Assembly (NCBI GenBank): GCA_902779125.1
Contig: CACZAC010000012.1
Location: forward strand, 1-64,000
DNA: 64,000 nucleotides
Reading direction: 5' to 3'
Origin: an uncultured Bacteroidales bacterium
Lineage (GTDB): Bacteria > Bacteroidota > Bacteroidia > Bacteroidales > Muribaculaceae
The position numbers and the translations under genes are program-made. Positions within the stretch are counted from its first letter, which is position 1. Every line of letters begins with the position of its first letter. The notes beneath the pieces were generated by a model. The model ran no database searches, had not been told where the DNA came from, and saw only the letters and a list, made by a program, of their open reading frames with translations. Shown here in pieces: positions 7,861-62,217 of the stretch.

Positions 7861-7885
7861 TTACGACATATTATCTTCACTATAT

Positions 7886-7923
7886 CAAGAAACCCTGCAC
7901 AACGCAATGTGCAGGGTTTCTTG
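7886..7923 (+). terminator. Terminator of the ribosomal operon
   Basis: A perfect 16-bp stem (7886-7901 pairs with 7908-7923) around the 6-nt loop ACGCAA. The stem contains AAACCCTGCAC and its complement. It lies just after rplQ. A nearly identical hairpin, differing by one loop base, occurs at 8523-8560. Confidence 0.85.
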
Positions 7924-7998
7924 TTGATTCATATTAACGTGAGCTTGACGAAAAGATATTCTAAATCTCAGCGAGTTAGCTATCTTAGGACTTGAGGG

Positions 7999-8270: not shown

Positions 8271-8522
8271 ATAGTGGGCATTTGACCTGGCCCCGCTAGG
8301 GGCGGCAGTAAATCCGTGCTACAAACTGTCGCCCCTGGTGGGGCTATATTATCGGGAGTATCATTTACAGGAGTTCCGCTTCGCTACACTCCTGCCTATA
8401 AACTGCCAGCCCTACGGGCTTAAATGTGTTAGCACACATCACTACCATTAATGCGTTGATATTTAGTCGTTTAATGAGTTCTGTTGATTATTTGACAGAC
8501 GTCAATAGCTTTCCACACTAAT
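8271..8522. other. Remainder of the gene-free block 7861-8603
   Basis: No credible open frame is present. The sequence carries GC-rich short palindromic pieces (the CGCCCCTGGTGGGGC and AGCCCTACGGGCT types) embedded in AT-rich DNA. These look like decayed relatives of the dispersed repeats seen at 43740-43915 and 58860-59240. No tRNA or ncRNA was recognised. Confidence 0.5.
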
Positions 8523-8560
8523 CAAGAAACCCTGCACAATGCAATGTGCAGGGTTTCTTG
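8523..8560 (-). terminator. Terminator after the lipoprotein gene (twin of 7886-7923)
   Basis: A 16-bp perfect stem (8523-8538 with 8545-8560) and loop ATGCAA. It lies 44 nt beyond the stop of the minus-strand lipoprotein gene at 8604. The sequence is nearly the same as the hairpin after rplQ, including several flanking bases on both sides. The two copies therefore bracket the repeat block between the two operons. Confidence 0.8.
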
Positions 8561-8603
8561 TTGATTTTTCATGCCGCATGTGGCAGCATGCACGCTTAAT
8601 GGC

Positions 8604-16189: not shown

Positions 16190-17317
16190 ATGAAAAAAGT
16201 AGTGCATTTATTTTTGTGCATGTTTGTGGCTCTGGTATCTTTGGCTCAAGTTCCAGAGTTGACTGTTGAGCAGCATCTCGAGGATTATGACTATGCTGTA
16301 AAGTACATTGAGGATAACTATGCGGGATTCCCTGATAAGGTTGTTGACAGCACCCGCACCGACTATAAGGCGATGAAAAACCGACTCCGCGCCCAGGTCG
16401 CCAACGGTGAGCGCCCGGGATGGAATGCTGTGGCAGAGTATTCGGCATGGTTCAATGATAGGCATTTGAAGATTCAGCAGTCTTATCCCAACGAAAAGGG
16501 AGAGTGGGTCAATTGGACTGAGCATTATATGAATAGAAAAGGAATCCATTATGAAGCTATGATGGAATATGAACCTGCAGCAATCGCCTGCAAGGTAACC
16601 GACAAGACCTTCTTGATCCGTTTCCCGTCTTGTAGTGGTGATGTTTCTGACACAAAATGGATAAAGAACTCGATTAAGCAATTCAAGAAATCCCGTTGCG
16701 AGAACCTCGTGATTGACATTCGCGGTAATGGAGGCGGTGATCCGCGTTGGACACCTTATTGGGCGTTGCTCTATGATCACGAGGGCGTTGTCCCAGGCAT
16801 TGAATATCGGAATACCCCTCAGAATCTGTCTTATATTATCGACGAGGAAAAAACCTATAAGTTGAAGGGGGAGAGAGCAAAGAAACTAATGAAAATGTCT
16901 TCTCAAAATCCTGACAGTGAGTTCTTAAGTTTATTTGGCAATCATCTGATCAAAAAATACAAGAAGATAGATAAATCAGTCAAGAAAGCCGCCCTCATCA
17001 TTGATAATTCAAACAGCAGCAATACCGAAGCAATGGTATCAGAAATCAAGGCAACCAGTTATCGCACCACAATTTATGGCCGCGACAATACGAGCGGCTG
17101 CCTTGATTTCTCGAATCTCGCTTTTATACATTTTAAGCATTACGATTGTTACTTTGGAGTCCCCATGTCACGCCGAATCGGTCTTCCAGAGACAAGCATT
17201 GACGCCACAGGCATCGCCCCCGACGTGCGCATCCCGTTGCCGCTGCCAGCCCGCTTGACCGACAACATCGACGAGTGGGTCATCTGGGTTGCCGAGCAAC
17301 TGGAAAATAATAACTAA
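16190..17317 (+). CDS. Exported S41-like (tail-specific) peptidase, copy 1
   Basis: 375 residues with signal peptide MKKVVHLFLCMFVALVSLAQ. The C-terminal half has the S41 core: NLVIDIRGNGGGDPRW (about residues 177-192) and a nucleophile region IIDNSNSSNTEAMVSEIKATS with a serine three residues before the glutamate, as in the family. The N-terminal half begins with the shared LTVEQHLEDYDYAVKYIEDNYAGFP module. No PDZ domain is seen. The probable role is cleavage of peptides or proteins in the periplasm; substrate unknown. A paralogue follows 28 nt later. The two genes are almost identical at DNA level at both ends but diverged in the middle, which suggests gene conversion. Confidence 0.8.
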   Translation: MKKVVHLFLCMFVALVSLAQVPELTVEQHLEDYDYAVKYIEDNYAGFPDKVVDSTRTDYKAMKNRLRAQVANGERPGWNAVAEYSAWFNDRHLKIQQSYPNEKGEWVNWTEHYMNRKGIHYEAMMEYEPAAIACKVTDKTFLIRFPSCSGDVSDTKWIKNSIKQFKKSRCENLVIDIRGNGGGDPRWTPYWALLYDHEGVVPGIEYRNTPQNLSYIIDEEKTYKLKGERAKKLMKMSSQNPDSEFLSLFGNHLIKKYKKIDKSVKKAALIIDNSNSSNTEAMVSEIKATSYRTTIYGRDNTSGCLDFSNLAFIHFKHYDCYFGVPMSRRIGLPETSIDATGIAPDVRIPLPLPARLTDNIDEWVIWVAEQLENNN

Positions 17318-17345: not shown

Positions 17346-18569
17346 ATGAGAAAAACATTAATTTCGTTAATAAGTTTGGTATTCGCCTTGACATTAGGAG
17401 CTCAAAAAATTGAATTGACTGTTGAGCAGCATCTCGAGGATTATGACTATGCTGTAAAGTACATTGAGGATAACTACGCAGGATTTCCCAATAAAGTCGT
17501 TGATAGCACACGTGCTGACTATGAGTCAATGAAAACCCGTCTGCACGCTCAAGTTTCCAAAGGCGAACGCACGGGTTGGGACGCAGTCGCTGAATACACA
17601 GCATGGTTCAATGATTACCATACTAGTTTGTGCTTGATTGATGTGGATTCCTGCGGAAGGACTAGAGGAGCCTCTGATAAGTATAGACTTCAAACTCCTA
17701 TCCATTATGATGAATTGATGGGGGAATATCGCCCTCAGCCTGTCGCATGTAAAGTGACCGACAAAACTTTCTTAGTTCGATTCCCTTCGTGTTATGTAGA
17801 TATTGGCATGGAGTGGATTGAAGGCTCAATCAGTAAATTAATGGACTCTGGATGTGAAAATTTAATTCTGGATATCCGTGGCAACACCGGAGGCAGTGAT
17901 CTCTATTGGTATCCATATTGGAGGCTTTTGGCCGACCACGATGGCGAGATTTGTGATGTGGAATATAGAAATTCGTCGGCCTATCGTGACTCCTTGTTAC
18001 AAGAGCTGAGCTCCCAGGGTGTGCCTGGTGAAATTATTCAAGGTGTACAGTCGGTTTTCCCTATGTTGGAAAATATTCAATATGTTCCAGGCTTTATTGT
18101 GCGTCAATTCTTGGTGAAGTTAACCGGTAGTCAAGATTTTTCCTTTGCTCAGTTACAAAGCGTTCTCAACTCACTCGCTCATCCGGAATTGATTTCCGGC
18201 AAGGATAACATTCACCTTGAGCAGGTGAGCGACGCGGTACGCCGAGCAGCTTTAATCATTGATAACAGAGTGGCAAGTTCAGGAGAAGCACTGGTAGAGT
18301 GTTTAAAGGCGACAAGTAACCGCACTACTGTTTATGGCCGTGATAATACCGAGGGTTGTTTAGACTTTGCTAATTGTAACCAAGTGCCGATGCCCAATAG
18401 TGGCATTGATATCTCAGTGCCAATGTCACGTCGGGTGGGACTTCCCGAAACAGGCATTGACGCTACGGGTATCGCCCCCGACGTGCGCATCCCGTTGCCG
18501 CTGCCAGCCCGCTTGACCGACAACATCGACGAGTGGGTCATCTGGGTTGCCGAGCAACTGGAAAAGTAA
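17346..18569 (+). CDS. Exported S41-like peptidase, copy 2
   Basis: 407 residues from the ATG at 17346; an in-frame ATG at 17289 lies inside the previous gene and is rejected because the signal peptide MRKTLISLISLVFALTLGAQ starts here. S41 features are NLILDIRGNTGGSDLYW and RVASSGEALVECLKATS, with the nucleophile serine likely within ASSGE. Compared with copy 1 it has a longer helical insert between these motifs (LQELSSQGVPGEIIQGV and following). The C-terminus, from GIAPDVRIPLPLPARL onward, is the same as in copy 1. It is cotranscribed with copy 1 and probably has a related but different substrate. Confidence 0.8.
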   Translation: MRKTLISLISLVFALTLGAQKIELTVEQHLEDYDYAVKYIEDNYAGFPNKVVDSTRADYESMKTRLHAQVSKGERTGWDAVAEYTAWFNDYHTSLCLIDVDSCGRTRGASDKYRLQTPIHYDELMGEYRPQPVACKVTDKTFLVRFPSCYVDIGMEWIEGSISKLMDSGCENLILDIRGNTGGSDLYWYPYWRLLADHDGEICDVEYRNSSAYRDSLLQELSSQGVPGEIIQGVQSVFPMLENIQYVPGFIVRQFLVKLTGSQDFSFAQLQSVLNSLAHPELISGKDNIHLEQVSDAVRRAALIIDNRVASSGEALVECLKATSNRTTVYGRDNTEGCLDFANCNQVPMPNSGIDISVPMSRRVGLPETGIDATGIAPDVRIPLPLPARLTDNIDEWVIWVAEQLEK

Positions 18570-22686: not shown

Positions 22687-23931
22687 ATGGGACTGATTGA
22701 CGACAGTAAACGCATCAACGAAATAGATACTCAAGAGGAACGCGCCATCCTCGTGGGACTGATTACCCCCCAGCAGGGCGAAGCCAAGGCCAAAGAATAC
22801 CTCGACGAACTAGAATTCCTCGCCGAGACGGCAGGCGCCGTCACCGTGCGCACTTTTCTGCAGCGGTGCGACGGCCCCAACAGCACGTCCTACGTCGGCA
22901 AGGGCAAACTCGAAGAAATTGTCGATTTTGTCGAGAACAACGACATCAGCCTTGTCATCTTTGACGACGACCTCACACCCAAGCAGATTGCCTTCATCGA
23001 GAAGGCCGTCAAGGTCAAGACGCTCGACCGCACGAGCCTTATCCTCGACATCTTTGCTAAGCGCGCACAGACCGCCAGCGCCAAGATGCAGGTCGAACTG
23101 GCGCAGTACCAGTACCTGCTGCCGCGATTGACGGGTATGTGGACCCACCTCGAGCGTCAGCGAGGCGGTATCGGTATGCGTGGTCCCGGTGAAACGCAGA
23201 TAGAGACCGACCGCCGTATTGTCAAGACCAAAATCTCCTTGCTCAAGGAGAAACTCGCACAGCTCGATAAGCAGAAGGTCACCCAGCGCAAGAACCGAGG
23301 CAAACTCACCCGCATCGCCCTCGTGGGCTACACCAACGTGGGCAAATCCACGCTGATGAACGTCCTGAGCAAGAGCGAGGTGTTTGCCGAGAATAAACTC
23401 TTTGCCACGCTCGACACCACTGTCCGCAAGGTGGTCATTTCCAATCTGCCTTTCCTGCTGACAGATACCGTCGGCTTTATCCGCAAGCTGCCCACCCATC
23501 TGGTCGAGTCGTTCAAGAGCACCCTCGACGAGGTGCGCGACAGCGACATCCTCGTCCATGTGGTCGATATCTCGCATCCCCAGTTCGAGGAGCAAATCGA
23601 GGTCGTGAACCGCACCCTGCAGGAGGTGTGCGATGCCGGTGACAAGGAGATGATTATGGTCTTCAACAAGATTGACCAGTTCACCCATGTTCCCAAGGAT
23701 GAGGATGACCTCACTCCCCGTCTGCGCGAGAACATCCCCCTCGAGGAACTCCAGGAGACCTGGATGGCACGCATGGGCGACAACTGTGTCTTCATCAGCG
23801 CCAAAAAGCAGCAGAACATCGATGCCCTTAAGAAACTGCTCTACAACAAGGCCAAGGCTGTCCACACCGCCCGCTTCCCTTACAACGACTTCCTCTTCCA
23901 AACCTACGACGACCTCACCGACGACGAGTAA
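22687..23931 (+). CDS. hflX: GTPase HflX
   Basis: 414 residues from the ATG at 22687. The N-terminal nucleotide-binding HflX domain has EFLAETAGAVTVRTFLQRCDGPNSTSYVGKGKLEEI, and the glycine-rich linker is RQRGGIGMRGPGETQIETDRR. The G domain shows GYTNVGKST (214-222), DTVGFIRKLP and NKID. HflX binds the 50S subunit and splits stalled ribosomes, mainly under heat stress. The C-terminal tail YNDFLFQTYDDLTDDE matters here, because its coding DNA is duplicated at 25018-25068 beyond the next gene. The gene is intact and divergent from GH92. Confidence 0.95.
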   Translation: MGLIDDSKRINEIDTQEERAILVGLITPQQGEAKAKEYLDELEFLAETAGAVTVRTFLQRCDGPNSTSYVGKGKLEEIVDFVENNDISLVIFDDDLTPKQIAFIEKAVKVKTLDRTSLILDIFAKRAQTASAKMQVELAQYQYLLPRLTGMWTHLERQRGGIGMRGPGETQIETDRRIVKTKISLLKEKLAQLDKQKVTQRKNRGKLTRIALVGYTNVGKSTLMNVLSKSEVFAENKLFATLDTTVRKVVISNLPFLLTDTVGFIRKLPTHLVESFKSTLDEVRDSDILVHVVDISHPQFEEQIEVVNRTLQEVCDAGDKEMIMVFNKIDQFTHVPKDEDDLTPRLRENIPLEELQETWMARMGDNCVFISAKKQQNIDALKKLLYNKAKAVHTARFPYNDFLFQTYDDLTDDE

Positions 23932-23975
23932 CTTTTTTTCTTGAAATGAAATAAACCAATTATTGTGAAAACAAA

Positions 23976-24998
23976 ATGATGTCCTCTAAATATCATTTAT
24001 CCAATAGAGTTTGTAGTATTGACTTCGTAAAAGGGATTGCTGCTATTCTCATAGTATGTCTTCATTGTTTTAGACTGGATGCAATTGATGGTCTGATTCA
24101 TATTATTGCCAAACTGAGTGTTCCAGTTTTTTTTATAATTACTGGATATTATCTACCTGATATGATGAGTTCAGGACGCTTATCAATACATATAAGAAAA
24201 ATATTAAAAATTACTGTTCTTAGTATCCTGTTATATGCCTTTTTATATGTTATTGATCCAAGTAAAGGCGGAATACTAAATGCACTTATTACTGTTTTTA
24301 AGTCCTGTTCCTCAGCAATAACTAGTCTTCTGCTTGGAAGAGTGCCTATTGATGTAAATGCTGGACACTTATGGTATTTAGTATCAATCTTGTACATTCT
24401 TGTTTTTTTCTCTTTTTTTGCAAAAAAGGAAAGTATAAAAAAGCTATATTTCTGTATACCAATATTGTTTTTTATTGGATACTTAATAAGTTCAGTAGTG
24501 GATGGGCTTGATGGAAATTCAAGGAAGTTTTATCAGAATTACTTATTTATTGGTTTGCCTTATGTCTTATTGGGTAGTTTCATTCATGAGAATAATGACA
24601 AAATTATTATAAGTAATAGAAAGTTAGGCATATTGTTTATTATTCTTTTTTTTGTTTATTTAGCCGAATTGGGCCTCTATTATATAGTGGGTGTTGAGAT
24701 ACATAGAGAACACTATTTGTCAATTATTCCGCTCGTATGTATAGTCTTAATTTGGGCTATTAATAACCCGAATTTTGGCTATAATAATTGGATTTCAAGA
24801 ATCGGTAAAGATTATTCTCTATACATTTATATTTTTCATTATTATATCGTTTCAAAATTATGGGGACTAATGCCTCATAATTCTGTGTTGTCATCAAAAA
24901 TAATGATGTTGTTATCTATAGTGTTAAGTGTCGCTTCTGCGTTTTTATTCTTGAGATTAAAATCCATTATAAAAACATTGAAAAAAAAGACCGTTTAG
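23976..24998 (+). CDS. Membrane acyltransferase (acyltransferase 3 family), copy A
   Basis: 340 residues, almost all hydrophobic with about ten membrane segments. The family N-terminus is RVCSIDFVKGIAAILIVCLHCFRL, with the conserved histidine within CLHC, then SVPVFFIITGYYLP. Acyltransferase 3 proteins move acyl groups, usually acetyl, onto lipopolysaccharide O-antigen, capsule or other glycans. The base composition is strikingly AT-rich against the GC-richer genes on both sides, suggesting horizontal origin. It starts 44 nt after hflX and is followed by a relic of the hflX 3' end. Start choice between ATG 23976 and 23979 is open. Confidence 0.88.
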   Translation: MMSSKYHLSNRVCSIDFVKGIAAILIVCLHCFRLDAIDGLIHIIAKLSVPVFFIITGYYLPDMMSSGRLSIHIRKILKITVLSILLYAFLYVIDPSKGGILNALITVFKSCSSAITSLLLGRVPIDVNAGHLWYLVSILYILVFFSFFAKKESIKKLYFCIPILFFIGYLISSVVDGLDGNSRKFYQNYLFIGLPYVLLGSFIHENNDKIIISNRKLGILFIILFFVYLAELGLYYIVGVEIHREHYLSIIPLVCIVLIWAINNPNFGYNNWISRIGKDYSLYIYIFHYYIVSKLWGLMPHNSVLSSKIMMLLSIVLSVASAFLFLRLKSIIKTLKKKTV

Positions 24999-25017
24999 AT
25001 TATCTCTCACTTGTGGT

Positions 25018-25068
25018 TACAACGCCTTTCTCTTCCAGACCTATGACGACCTTACCGACGACGAATAA
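25018..25068 (+). repeat. Relic duplicate of the hflX 3' end
   Basis: These 51 bp match hflX 23881-23931 at 45 of 51 positions and would read YNAFLFQTYDDLTDDE-stop. Five of the six differences are synonymous in the hflX frame, so the copy diverged while under coding selection in another hflX allele. It has no start or upstream coding part here. Confidence 0.85.
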
Positions 25069-25125
25069 TCTTCTAAAAGGTGCATTGTTTTCTAAATCAG
25101 TAGTGATGCACGCTTTTATTATGTT

Positions 25126-26184
25126 ATGAACCAATCTGCATTAAACCATAGAATATTATCATTTGATGTCCTACGAATTATAGCAGCGTTTGCTGTAGTG
25201 ATGCTGCATGTTTCGGCTGGGAGATTTGAAAATTGTTTTCCCTCATATGAATGGGAAATAACTAATATATATGCATCAATCGTACGATGGGGTGTGCCGA
25301 TATTTGTAATGATTTCAGGTGCCTTGTTCTTGAATCATGATAAGAAGATTAGCATCAAAAAACTCTATACCAAGAACCTTTTTCGTATTATTTACATCTT
25401 TATATTCTGGTCATTATGCTATGCTTTGTGTGATTCGATAATTAATAACAGTTTTAATTTATTAGATATCATAAGGTTAACATTAAAGGGACCAATCCAT
25501 CTCTGGTTTCTAAAGATGCTAATTGGTTTATACATAGCAGTTCCAATCTTAAGAGCGGTTACTCAGGAAAAACGTTTAGAAGAGTACTTTATCCTTATTG
25601 CAATTCTAACAGCATTCATTATTCCTATGCTCATTACTGCCATCGGCTTGTTTGATGAAAAAGTTGGAGAAAGTGTTCAAAAGTATTATGACGTATTCAG
25701 AATAAGAATTGCTTCAGATTATGTGGGTTTTTTTGTTCTTGGCCATTATCTTTATAACTATCAATTGAGTAATGTCCTAAAGAGATTTATTTTTCTAATG
25801 GCTTTATTGAGTGCGATTCTTGTAATCCTTCTCACTCATTGGCATTCACATTATATTGGGGAACCAAGTGAAGTGTTCTATCATACCAGTCATAATTTAT
25901 TTATATTGTTTGAATCCATGGCGATTTTTTTGATAATTAACCAGATGAATGTTCCTTTGAATTATTCTTCTATAATAGTCAGGTTGTCAAATCTTACGCT
26001 AGGTGTCTACCTCATTCACATGTTGCTTTATCGCATGGCATATTACATATTTGGGATTAATACATTATCATCATTTAATCCGTATTTTTTTATTCCTTGT
26101 TATAGTTTGATTATTTTTGCGGCAAGTTGTCTGGTTGTCTTTTTATTAAAAAAGATACCGATTATTAAAAAGTTTATAATGTAA
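25126..26184 (+). CDS. Membrane acyltransferase (acyltransferase 3 family), copy B
   Basis: 352 residues with about ten membrane segments. The N-terminus has RILSFDVLRIIAAFAVVMLHVSAG, the family's catalytic-histidine region (MLHVS), then WGVPIFVMISGALFLNHDKK. Later motifs include GPIHLWFLKMLIGLYIAVPILR and LTLGVYLIHMLLYRM. It is typical of O-acetyltransferases modifying surface polysaccharide. It is only distantly related to copy A, and likewise AT-rich, so both may have arrived in one or two transfers. Its stop codon overlaps the ATG of a small frame ending at 26327. Confidence 0.88.
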   Translation: MNQSALNHRILSFDVLRIIAAFAVVMLHVSAGRFENCFPSYEWEITNIYASIVRWGVPIFVMISGALFLNHDKKISIKKLYTKNLFRIIYIFIFWSLCYALCDSIINNSFNLLDIIRLTLKGPIHLWFLKMLIGLYIAVPILRAVTQEKRLEEYFILIAILTAFIIPMLITAIGLFDEKVGESVQKYYDVFRIRIASDYVGFFVLGHYLYNYQLSNVLKRFIFLMALLSAILVILLTHWHSHYIGEPSEVFYHTSHNLFILFESMAIFLIINQMNVPLNYSSIIVRLSNLTLGVYLIHMLLYRMAYYIFGINTLSSFNPYFFIPCYSLIIFAASCLVVFLLKKIPIIKKFIM

Positions 26185-26327
26185 TGGATATCTGCTGGAA
26201 TGATTTGGCTATTGTTTTTGATTTGGATGTACTAGAGTCAAACAAAGTCAGAAACAACCTAGCTAAAGATATCGAAGAACAGTTTTTTATCAGAGCCAAT
26301 CAGCAACAGACCTGCGACGACGAATAA
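26184..26327 (+). CDS. Small frame overlapping the acyltransferase stop, unknown
   Basis: 47 codons from ATG 26184 (which shares an A with the preceding TAA) to TAA 26325-26327. The peptide contains NDLAIVFDLDVLESNKVRNN and KDIEEQFFIRANQQ and ends QTCDDE. The first part could be a fragment of a larger protein. The last codons (CAGACCT..CGACGACGAATAA) resemble the end of hflX with a short internal loss. No function is claimed; it may be a relic rather than a gene. Confidence 0.3.
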   Translation: MDICWNDLAIVFDLDVLESNKVRNNLAKDIEEQFFIRANQQQTCDDE

Positions 26328-26339
26328 ATCTCAATAATT

Positions 26340-26879
26340 ATGGCGAACCCGACGAATAAACAAGAATTATTGGCTGCCATCAGTGATGGCTATGCCAAAT
26401 TGTGTGAACAGATAGCAAAGATGAGCGACGAAGAAAAGGTCAAGCCGTTTGACTTCGCTGCTGATCCCAAGAAGTGCGGCGTCCGCTGGGAGTATGACCG
26501 CTGCCTGCGTGACTTGCTGATTCACCTCCACGAGTGGCAGGTGCTCATGCGGGAGTTTGTGCAGAACATCCGCGAGGGCCATCCCAGGGATTACCTGCCC
26601 GATGAATACCGCCGCAACTACCACGAGATGGACAAGATGCTGGTCGAAAAGCATCAGAACACTCCTCTAGACGAGTCTCAACGCCTGTTGCAGCAGACAC
26701 AACAGGAGATGTTGACGCTCGCCGACAGTTTCTCGGAGGAGGAATTGTTTACCAAAGGGTACTACAAGAATACCTACACCACCACAATGGCGGCCTATTT
26801 TGTGAGTGTTACCACAAGCCCTTACGGTCAGGCGGTGAAGCTGCTCAAGACGCACCAGAAGAATTGCCGCAAAAAGTAA
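26340..26879 (+). CDS. ClbS/DfsB-family four-helix-bundle protein
   Basis: 179 residues, fully helical in character, matching the ClbS/DfsB (former DUF1706, DinB-like) family: NKQELLAAISDGYAKLCEQIAKM at the start, RDLLIHLHEWQVLMREFVQ in the middle, and a tail around AYFVSVTTSPYGQAVKLLKTHQK. ClbS itself protects colibactin producers by hydrolysing the colibactin cyclopropane; most homologues in non-producers have no tested function. No colibactin-type cluster is present here. Base composition returns to the GC-richer background, so this gene marks the right side of the AT-rich insert. Confidence 0.85.
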   Translation: MANPTNKQELLAAISDGYAKLCEQIAKMSDEEKVKPFDFAADPKKCGVRWEYDRCLRDLLIHLHEWQVLMREFVQNIREGHPRDYLPDEYRRNYHEMDKMLVEKHQNTPLDESQRLLQQTQQEMLTLADSFSEEELFTKGYYKNTYTTTMAAYFVSVTTSPYGQAVKLLKTHQKNCRKK

Positions 26880-48756: not shown

Positions 48757-48794
48757 ACTAGGGACTATAAACTAGGGACTAGAAACTAGAAACT
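48757..48794. repeat. ACTAGRRA minisatellite reaching into the end of the HsdR-N gene
   Basis: Degenerate units of ACTAGGG/ACTAGAA/ACTATAA type. On the minus strand the array supplies the last codons (Ser-Ser-Phe) and the TAG stop of the gene ending at 48779. Confidence 0.6.
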
Positions 48795-49246
48795 GTTAAC
48801 TCCTGATAGAGTGGTATTTCTTCCAGGAAGCGGTAACTGTTCTTCTCGTAGTCGATTTGGCAGCAGTAATGACTCAGGCCGTTGCTCACAATCAGGTAGC
48901 GGGCCTTGAGCACCATGTTGTAGCGAACAATCTGGTCAAACACCTTCTGAGTCACGTTGATGCTGGGCGCCTTGTACTCCACGATGACTAGCGGTTGTCC
49001 CGTGCGGTCAGCGACCACCGTGTCGCAGCGGCGGGCGATGCCGTTCTGTGTCAGCGACACCTCATTGCCCATTAGCGCGGCGGGAAACTGCCTGTCGGTA
49101 ATCAGCCACTCCACGAAGTGCTGGCGCACCCATTCCTCGGGCGTCAGCGCCACCCATCGGTCGCGCAGCCGGTCCCAAATCGCCCACGAGCCGTCCTCCC
49201 GCTTCGTCACCTTATAATCGTATTCCGGTAAATTCAACTCCACCAT
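48779..49246 (-). CDS. Type I restriction enzyme R-subunit N-terminal domain protein
   Basis: 155 residues from the ATG at 49246; an upstream ATG at 49276 is in frame. The region CDTVVADRTGQPLVIVEYKAPSINVTQKVFDQIVRYN contains the PD-(D/E)xK-like core D..EYK of the HSDR_N_2 family, after PEEWVRQHFVEWLI. There is no helicase part, so this is the stand-alone nuclease-fold protein that is common in Bacteroidales genomes and lacks hsdM/hsdS neighbours here. A nuclease or defence role is plausible but unproven. The last residues come from a minisatellite. Confidence 0.85.
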   Translation of the reverse strand: MVELNLPEYDYKVTKREDGSWAIWDRLRDRWVALTPEEWVRQHFVEWLITDRQFPAALMGNEVSLTQNGIARRCDTVVADRTGQPLVIVEYKAPSINVTQKVFDQIVRYNMVLKARYLIVSNGLSHYCCQIDYEKNSYRFLEEIPLYQELTVSSF

Positions 49247-62121: not shown

Positions 62122-62207
62122 TTAACAGTTAATAGTTAAAAGTTAATAGTTAATAGTTGACCATCCACCAACTAGAAACTAGGGACTAGAAACTAGAGAC
62201 CAGAAAC
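62119..62207. repeat. Minisatellite starting at the valS stop codon
   Basis: First half: units of TTAATAG, TTAACAG and TTAAAAG from 62119 to about 62160. Second half: ACTAGAA/ACTAGGG/ACTAGAG units from 62171 to 62207. Together they make up almost all of the valS-rpiB spacer. Confidence 0.65.
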
Positions 62208-62217
62208 AAAAAAGAAT

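Follow-up and report, generated by a model that had tools for sequence, protein, structure and literature searches.

The window analyzed here is a 64,000-nucleotide (nt) stretch of contig CACZAC010000012.1 from an uncultured Bacteroidales bacterium of the Muribaculaceae, and the subject of this report is the short variable region within it, hereafter the slot, that lies between hflX, a housekeeping GTPase gene, and a gene of the DUF1706 family. The slot holds two acyltransferase genes and, behind each of them, a sequence resembling the 3' end of hflX. Genomes of relatives are numbered with the prefix G, the window's own genome being G000. The features are as follows (window positions; aa, amino acids; bp, base pairs; GC, fraction of guanine and cytosine; E, expectation value).

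22687..23931, forward strand: hflX (414 aa), left anchor of the slot; a complete open reading frame (ORF) with full-length matches in relatives
23880..23931, forward strand: present hflX 3' end, copy 1 of the repeat, from genome search and pairwise alignment
23976..24998, forward strand: acyltransferase 1 (340 aa, Acyl_transf_3, Pfam E 3e-24), GC 0.29, the putative latest insert
25017..25068, forward strand: R1, the probable displaced old hflX 3' end; 46/52 against the present end, with downstream DNA that aligns with G082
25126..26184, forward strand: acyltransferase 2 (352 aa, Acyl_transf_3), GC 0.32, the putative earlier insert, common to G082 (78% aa identity)
26286..26327, forward strand: R2, a probable older, internally deleted hflX relic, with similar relics in G082 and G080
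26340..26879, forward strand: DUF1706 gene (179 aa, Pfam PF08020, E 4.6e-36), right border of the slot, directly 3' of hflX in empty sites

Repeats of the hflX 3' end in the window

An earlier reading made from the sequence alone had proposed that a cassette entered at the 3' end of hflX, bringing a new hflX end in front of it and leaving the old end behind. The repeat on which this sequence-only reading was built was reproduced: 23881–23931 and 25018–25068 are identical at 45 of 51 positions, or at 46 of 52 with an extra base on the left, and five of the six changed codons are synonymous while the remaining one exchanges D for A. When 75 bp of the hflX end were searched against the complete own genome, only two strong copies appeared (E 2.9e-33 and 8.5e-13; the next match had E 0.12), and in this genome the repeat is not a common motif occurring far from hflX. 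The two acyltransferase genes are, as noted earlier, AT-rich, with GC of 0.29 and 0.32 compared with 0.56 for hflX, 0.52 for the DUF1706 gene and 0.52 for the whole window. Both proteins were assigned to Acyl_transf_3 at 86.1 and 139 bits, against a curated Pfam cut-off of 31.

The third resemblance to hflX, described earlier as a short match ending at 26327, proved to be real but longer than had been thought, spanning 26286–26327 and recurring in two related species. The 34 bp from 26286 match hflX at ∼145–110 bp before the stop codon, and the last bases of R2 resemble the end of the gene in a by-eye reading of the alignment. The 110 bp before the window's DUF1706 gene scored 35 against hflX ends where the mean of shuffled sequences was 18.6 (p 0.002, the minimum for 500 shuffles), and the control scores, judged against the hflX shuffle scores, were 17 for alaS 3' ends (p 0.82) and 18 for DUF1706 3' ends (p 0.68). 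R2 by itself was weak in the search of loci for hflX tails (E 0.003), as was its counterpart in G082 (E 0.024), and both were accepted on their position together with the 110-bp shuffle test.

Variable content between hflX and DUF1706 in relatives

The HflX protein search gave matches in 99 of the 101 genomes of the genus, and the DNA 3' of 91 hflX matches was taken for comparison. The near group consisted of 39 loci including the window, with HflX proteins ∼94% identical or more and with broken hflX matches in two of them. The DUF1706 gene was the next conserved gene in 27 of these 39 loci; among the remaining 12, three ended at a contig end (L138, L140 and L150) and the others had different genes 3' of hflX. 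Sites without cargo were found as had been anticipated, in four of the 27 DUF1706-bounded slots (2 bp in G073, 12 bp in both G075 and G052, and 83 bp in G070), and the other 23 were filled, 21 of them by four gene families defined by protein clustering, whose representatives were scanned against Pfam. The relatives therefore do not all carry the same two acyltransferases, and genes of other kinds do stand in the slot, as the sequence-only reading had expected.

A dockerin-type secreted protein was encoded in 10 of the 23 filled slots, accompanied by an acyltransferase in G082 and by a C10 peptidase in G059 and G060; the one counted for G099 has a dockerin match below the Pfam cut-off and is esterase-like. 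An acyltransferase only was found in three slots, a C10 peptidase only in three, and a 134-aa protein without a Pfam match in five. The last two filled slots had no ORF of a named family (G057, and G020, whose DNA aligns with the 134-aa group). The suggestion that the site is specific to O-acyltransferases did not hold, since acyltransferases occupy only four of the 23 filled slots (G000, G082, G054 and G029), and AT-richness is likewise limited to some of the cargos. In the DUF1706-bounded slots, 29 of 31 ORFs had the orientation of hflX, the exceptions being a related pair without a family in G059 and G060. Some genus members lack the DUF1706 gene or carry it at another place. In G013, G053, G048 and G027 it was observed on a different contig from hflX, and upstream of it in G013 and G053 only weak hflX-like matches were found (E 0.01–0.07), none of which was accepted as a relic.

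The DNA 3' of hflX was much less alignable than comparable flanks. Among the 210 pairs formed by 21 genomes, 150 or more of the first 500 bp could be aligned in 34 pairs 3' of hflX, in 130 pairs upstream of it and in 156 pairs behind alaS, a comparison based on one control gene and one other flank. Slot content, labelled by hand in eight states, needs 20 changes on the alaS tree of 36 genomes, a count given with no shuffled comparison. Two genomes were omitted from the tree and pair tests: G088, in which no alaS was found, and G030, in which a short hflX contig carries the slot of G029 and alaS is only 75% identical. G030 has two full hflX matches, the one sharing the G029 slot being on a 3-kb contig, and its assembly is possibly mixed. 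No integrase, transposase or recombinase domain was found by Pfam in the representatives of the named slot families, a scan that through these families covered 21 of the 23 filled slots, and that took in a minority of the genes of the 12 loci without DUF1706. Judged by its sequences, the slot thus appears to be a hotspot of gene turnover between conserved genes, with no mobility gene seen.

One slot gene was transferred recently. The 134-aa gene of G094, G089 and G093 has 97.4–99.0% DNA identity among them, compared with 84.3–85.4% for alaS and 91.3–93.2% for hflX. The near-identical tract begins inside the last ∼90 bp of hflX, where conservation of the gene end throughout allows no finer placement of the limit, and stops near the start of DUF1706. 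This exchange was clean on both sides.

hflX relics and the order of parts in G082

At least one hflX-tail relic was found in nine of the 39 near-group loci. These nine loci do not amount to nine events because several relics were probably shared by descent or transfer, namely R2 with its counterparts in G082 and G080, R1 with an inner relic of G082, and the relics of G048, G013 and G068. Directly before DUF1706, the 110 bp were hflX-like in five of the 23 filled slots (G000, G082, G080, G054 and G099; p 0.002 each, the minimum possible), and at p 0.01 the same test returned none of 23 for alaS ends and one of 23 for DUF1706 ends. Other relics lie inside the slots, R1 in the window and another in G082. 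In G048 and G013 an hflX tail including the stop codon was found shortly before a dockerin gene, and G068 has a shorter match; these three had no DUF1706 within the stretch read, and the scores of G013 and G068 (34 and 30) were narrowly above the best of 500 simple shuffles (29 and 28). In the hflX-tail search, 12 of the 21 listed rows (E 0.0005–0.024) were not counted as relics, some of them with a lower E than R2 and its G082 counterpart, except that G048, one of the 12, was retested and accepted. Among the more distant genus members (51 loci, L155–L205, several of them short), no repeat of the locus's own hflX end was found within 7 kb at the threshold used.

G052, one of the empty sites, has two dockerin genes at a distance of 3–5 kb downstream of hflX, each with an hflX-end relic in front. 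The first relic, its spacer and the gene start are 66–70% identical over 395–464 bp to the hflX-end/dockerin region of G050, G082 and G080. In this locus (L137, 3984–8120), the relic–dockerin pairs were observed between two copies of a 94–106-aa gene labelled by hand as TPR-like, perhaps the outcome of the same kind of event anchored at the opposite side.

The most informative relative was G082, whose HflX protein is 99% identical to that of the window. There, an hflX gene with a different end is followed by a dockerin gene, by no more than the first ∼100 bp of DUF1706, and by a remnant of hflX that starts at about −86; acyltransferase 2 and R2 come next, and a whole DUF1706 gene closes the series. 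In 120-bp bins, the hflX genes of the window and G082 are 92–98% identical over the first 1080 bp and then 90% and 76%, a late drop consistent with a replaced end in at least one of the two. With a query starting ∼150 bp before the hflX stop, a block of 2.0 kb proved to be 84–85% identical to G050 and G055; it leads from the hflX end across the dockerin gene and stops ∼100 bp inside DUF1706, at the point where the hflX remnant starts. The truncated DUF1706 of G082 begins with TTTTGGC like those of G050 and G055, while the whole copies of G052 and G082 begin with ATG. At the break, AAGGCC is common to the G050 DUF1706 gene and hflX (∼6 bp of microhomology), and AAGGC in the case of G055. Given that alaS identity between G082 and G050 or G055 is also ∼85%, the block is only as similar as the species are, and it is therefore the order of parts, not the similarity, that shows the insertion; the donor need not have been G050 or G055 themselves. 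As far as can be read from this order and junction, G082 seems to combine a homologous anchor on one side, where the block is continuous with the hflX end, with a microhomology junction on the other.

In the window and in G082 alike, acyltransferase 2 is preceded by a relic (R1 and the inner one, respectively), and the spacer DNA is alignable. Another account of the window would be a local tandem duplication of the hflX end in one lineage without foreign DNA, and in its favour R1 differs from the present end at just six of 51 bases, mostly silently. The gene between the copies, however, is far from its surroundings in GC and was not found in the slots of relatives, and G082 has a relic before the same acyltransferase, yet a different cargo in front, so that we regard such a duplication as extremely improbable.

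Direct repeats at the end of a conserved gene that restore the gene are the classical picture of site-specific integration, and the hflX 3' end could in principle be an attachment (att) site used by a tyrosine recombinase or similar enzyme, with the 51-bp repeats as attL and attR. The gene-restoring repeats fit this picture, and the relics R1, G054 and G099 all begin ∼45–57 bp before the stop. The left limits of the detectable relics nevertheless range from about −33 in G048 through about −86 in G082, where the relic is fused to DUF1706, and about −145 for R2 and G080 to about −260 in G052, although decay could blur them. The G052 relics with their dockerin genes moreover stand 3–5 kb from hflX. 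Because relic boundaries vary and no recombinase domain was seen in the scanned slot families, a site-specific element is disfavoured, and with it the defined, att-like gene end that the sequence-only reading had in mind; allowing for a recombinase acting from elsewhere, we consider it quite unlikely. An integron-like system, in which cassettes bordered by hflX tails would enter at a fixed place behind hflX in the same orientation through a recombinase encoded elsewhere, with older ones moving downstream, seems to us very unlikely indeed.

Proposed mode of insertion and related systems

The empty sites, other cargos, relics and G082 order agree with the earlier proposal of insertion at the hflX 3' end with a new end in front and the old end behind. 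We consider, with a probability of about 0.8, that the hflX–DUF1706 slot turns over by recombination between related species, in which incoming DNA is anchored by homology in hflX and joined illegitimately at its far end, with two-sided exchange occurring as well. Incoming DNA would carry the hflX end of a relative together with the gene that follows it there, and would pair with the resident hflX; its far end, lacking a matching partner, would be joined illegitimately, as may have happened at a short microhomology in the closely read junction. The resulting order would be a complete hflX with a new end, the new gene, the remnant of the old hflX end, the older genes and DUF1706. Where both flanks are homologous, the slot would be cleanly replaced and no relic left. 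The identical final order would result if the DNA had first been closed into a circle at the microhomology and had then entered by one crossover in hflX.

For the window, at least two such events may be envisaged, the older of which would have left R2. Acyltransferase 2 would once have followed immediately on the hflX end now seen as R1; later, the present hflX end, which we infer came from a related strain, would have arrived together with acyltransferase 1. The present end is identical to that of G070 at 39 of 39 bases over a strongly conserved stretch; when R1 was compared over the same stretch with the current hflX ends across the near group, the best agreement was 35 of 39 bases, and no source was identified among them. 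At E 1e-20, acyltransferase 1 had matches in four other genomes of the genus, which were 27–48% identical; those of G054, G092 and G085 were on contigs other than those of their listed hflX matches, and for G062 no full hflX was listed. At E 1e-40, two of 397 family genomes matched, the own genome included. As to how DNA might enter, the own genome has members of the ComEC and DprA families, but most control genomes, Escherichia coli among them, have these too, and their presence does not discriminate.

Several observations weigh against this interpretation. A donor carrying acyltransferase 1 beside hflX was found neither in the genus nor in the 397 family genomes. Genomes sharing a cargo showed no extra hflX identity upstream of the last ∼15 bp relative to the expectation from alaS distance (29 genomes, −0.99 points, p 0.88, 1000 permutations), and long co-transferred hflX tracts were therefore not seen. 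DDLE-type hflX tails adjoin a dockerin gene in 11 of 13 genomes, compared with three of 23 for other tails, but the tree-corrected test of tail type and dockerin cargo, although it pointed the same way, had too few pairs (3.5 pairs to 0, p 0.125). A single junction was read at base level, and its ∼6 bp of microhomology could be due to chance. The surveyed genomes are mostly in many contigs. Finally, the 110-bp shuffle test detected no hflX relic before DUF1706 in 18 of the 23 filled slots. This last count, together with the tract of G094, G089 and G093, which is bounded by both flanking genes and has no relic before DUF1706, is what would be expected if two-sided homologous recombination between hflX and DUF1706 were the only process and the relics were secondary products of small duplications and deletions. 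Such a process by itself fails to predict the G082 order, with a DUF1706 start, an old hflX remnant, older cargo and a whole DUF1706, as well as R1 inside the slot of the window, and we judge it unlikely to be the whole explanation.

The anchored, one-sided insertion that we favour resembles homology-facilitated illegitimate recombination, which is reported from three competent species and from conjugation in E. coli (PMC3240628), with homology at one end of the incoming DNA and illegitimate joining at the other. It differs from that account in being inferred from a natural series of genomes of an uncultured genus, and in its repetition at one locus. Serial displacement of type VI secretion system (T6SS) effector–immunity modules in Vibrio cholerae, for which PMC5361080 proposes the same mechanism and discusses Rhs orphan ends, is similar in its constant upstream anchor, new module in front and old 3' parts downstream as a record of events; unlike there, the slot is anchored in a housekeeping gene with no evident relation to the cargo, and it is hflX ends, in broken form, that were displaced. 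Two further reports, on hotspots that lack mobility genes and recombine at the core genes flanking them (PMC5635113) and on small variable segments attributed to homology-assisted illegitimate recombination (PMC2884548), have features in common with the slot: conserved genes enclose a content that varies, mobility genes were not found, and homologous recombination is proposed for the flanks. Both are within-species surveys, while here single junctions between species could be read. The process is known elsewhere, and in a limited literature search hflX did not turn up as an anchor, nor was it reported as an integration site, genomic island site or insertion hotspot; the same search returned no paper on competence in Muribaculaceae.

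The locus would thus present an unusually legible case of gene acquisition with no mobile element seen, in which relics of the anchor gene may serve as time stamps of successive insertions. It suggests a way in which incoming genes for surface or secreted proteins borrow the end of a housekeeping gene, and possibly its transcription as well. Such events could be counted across genomes by a simple signature, a variable slot that contains repeats of the end of an adjacent core gene.

Further repeats were observed elsewhere in the window. Two 46-nt copies at 7884–7929 and 8521–8566 are 98% identical, hairpin-like and terminator-looking. A 150-bp repeat with 91% identity lies at 17158–17307, at the end of an ORF, and at 18416–18565, around the start of the same ORF; together with another repeat at 16256/17412 (81%), it suggests tandem related genes. 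Short arrays of the ACTAGGGACTAGAAACTAG type were found at 48757–48806 and 62164–62213.

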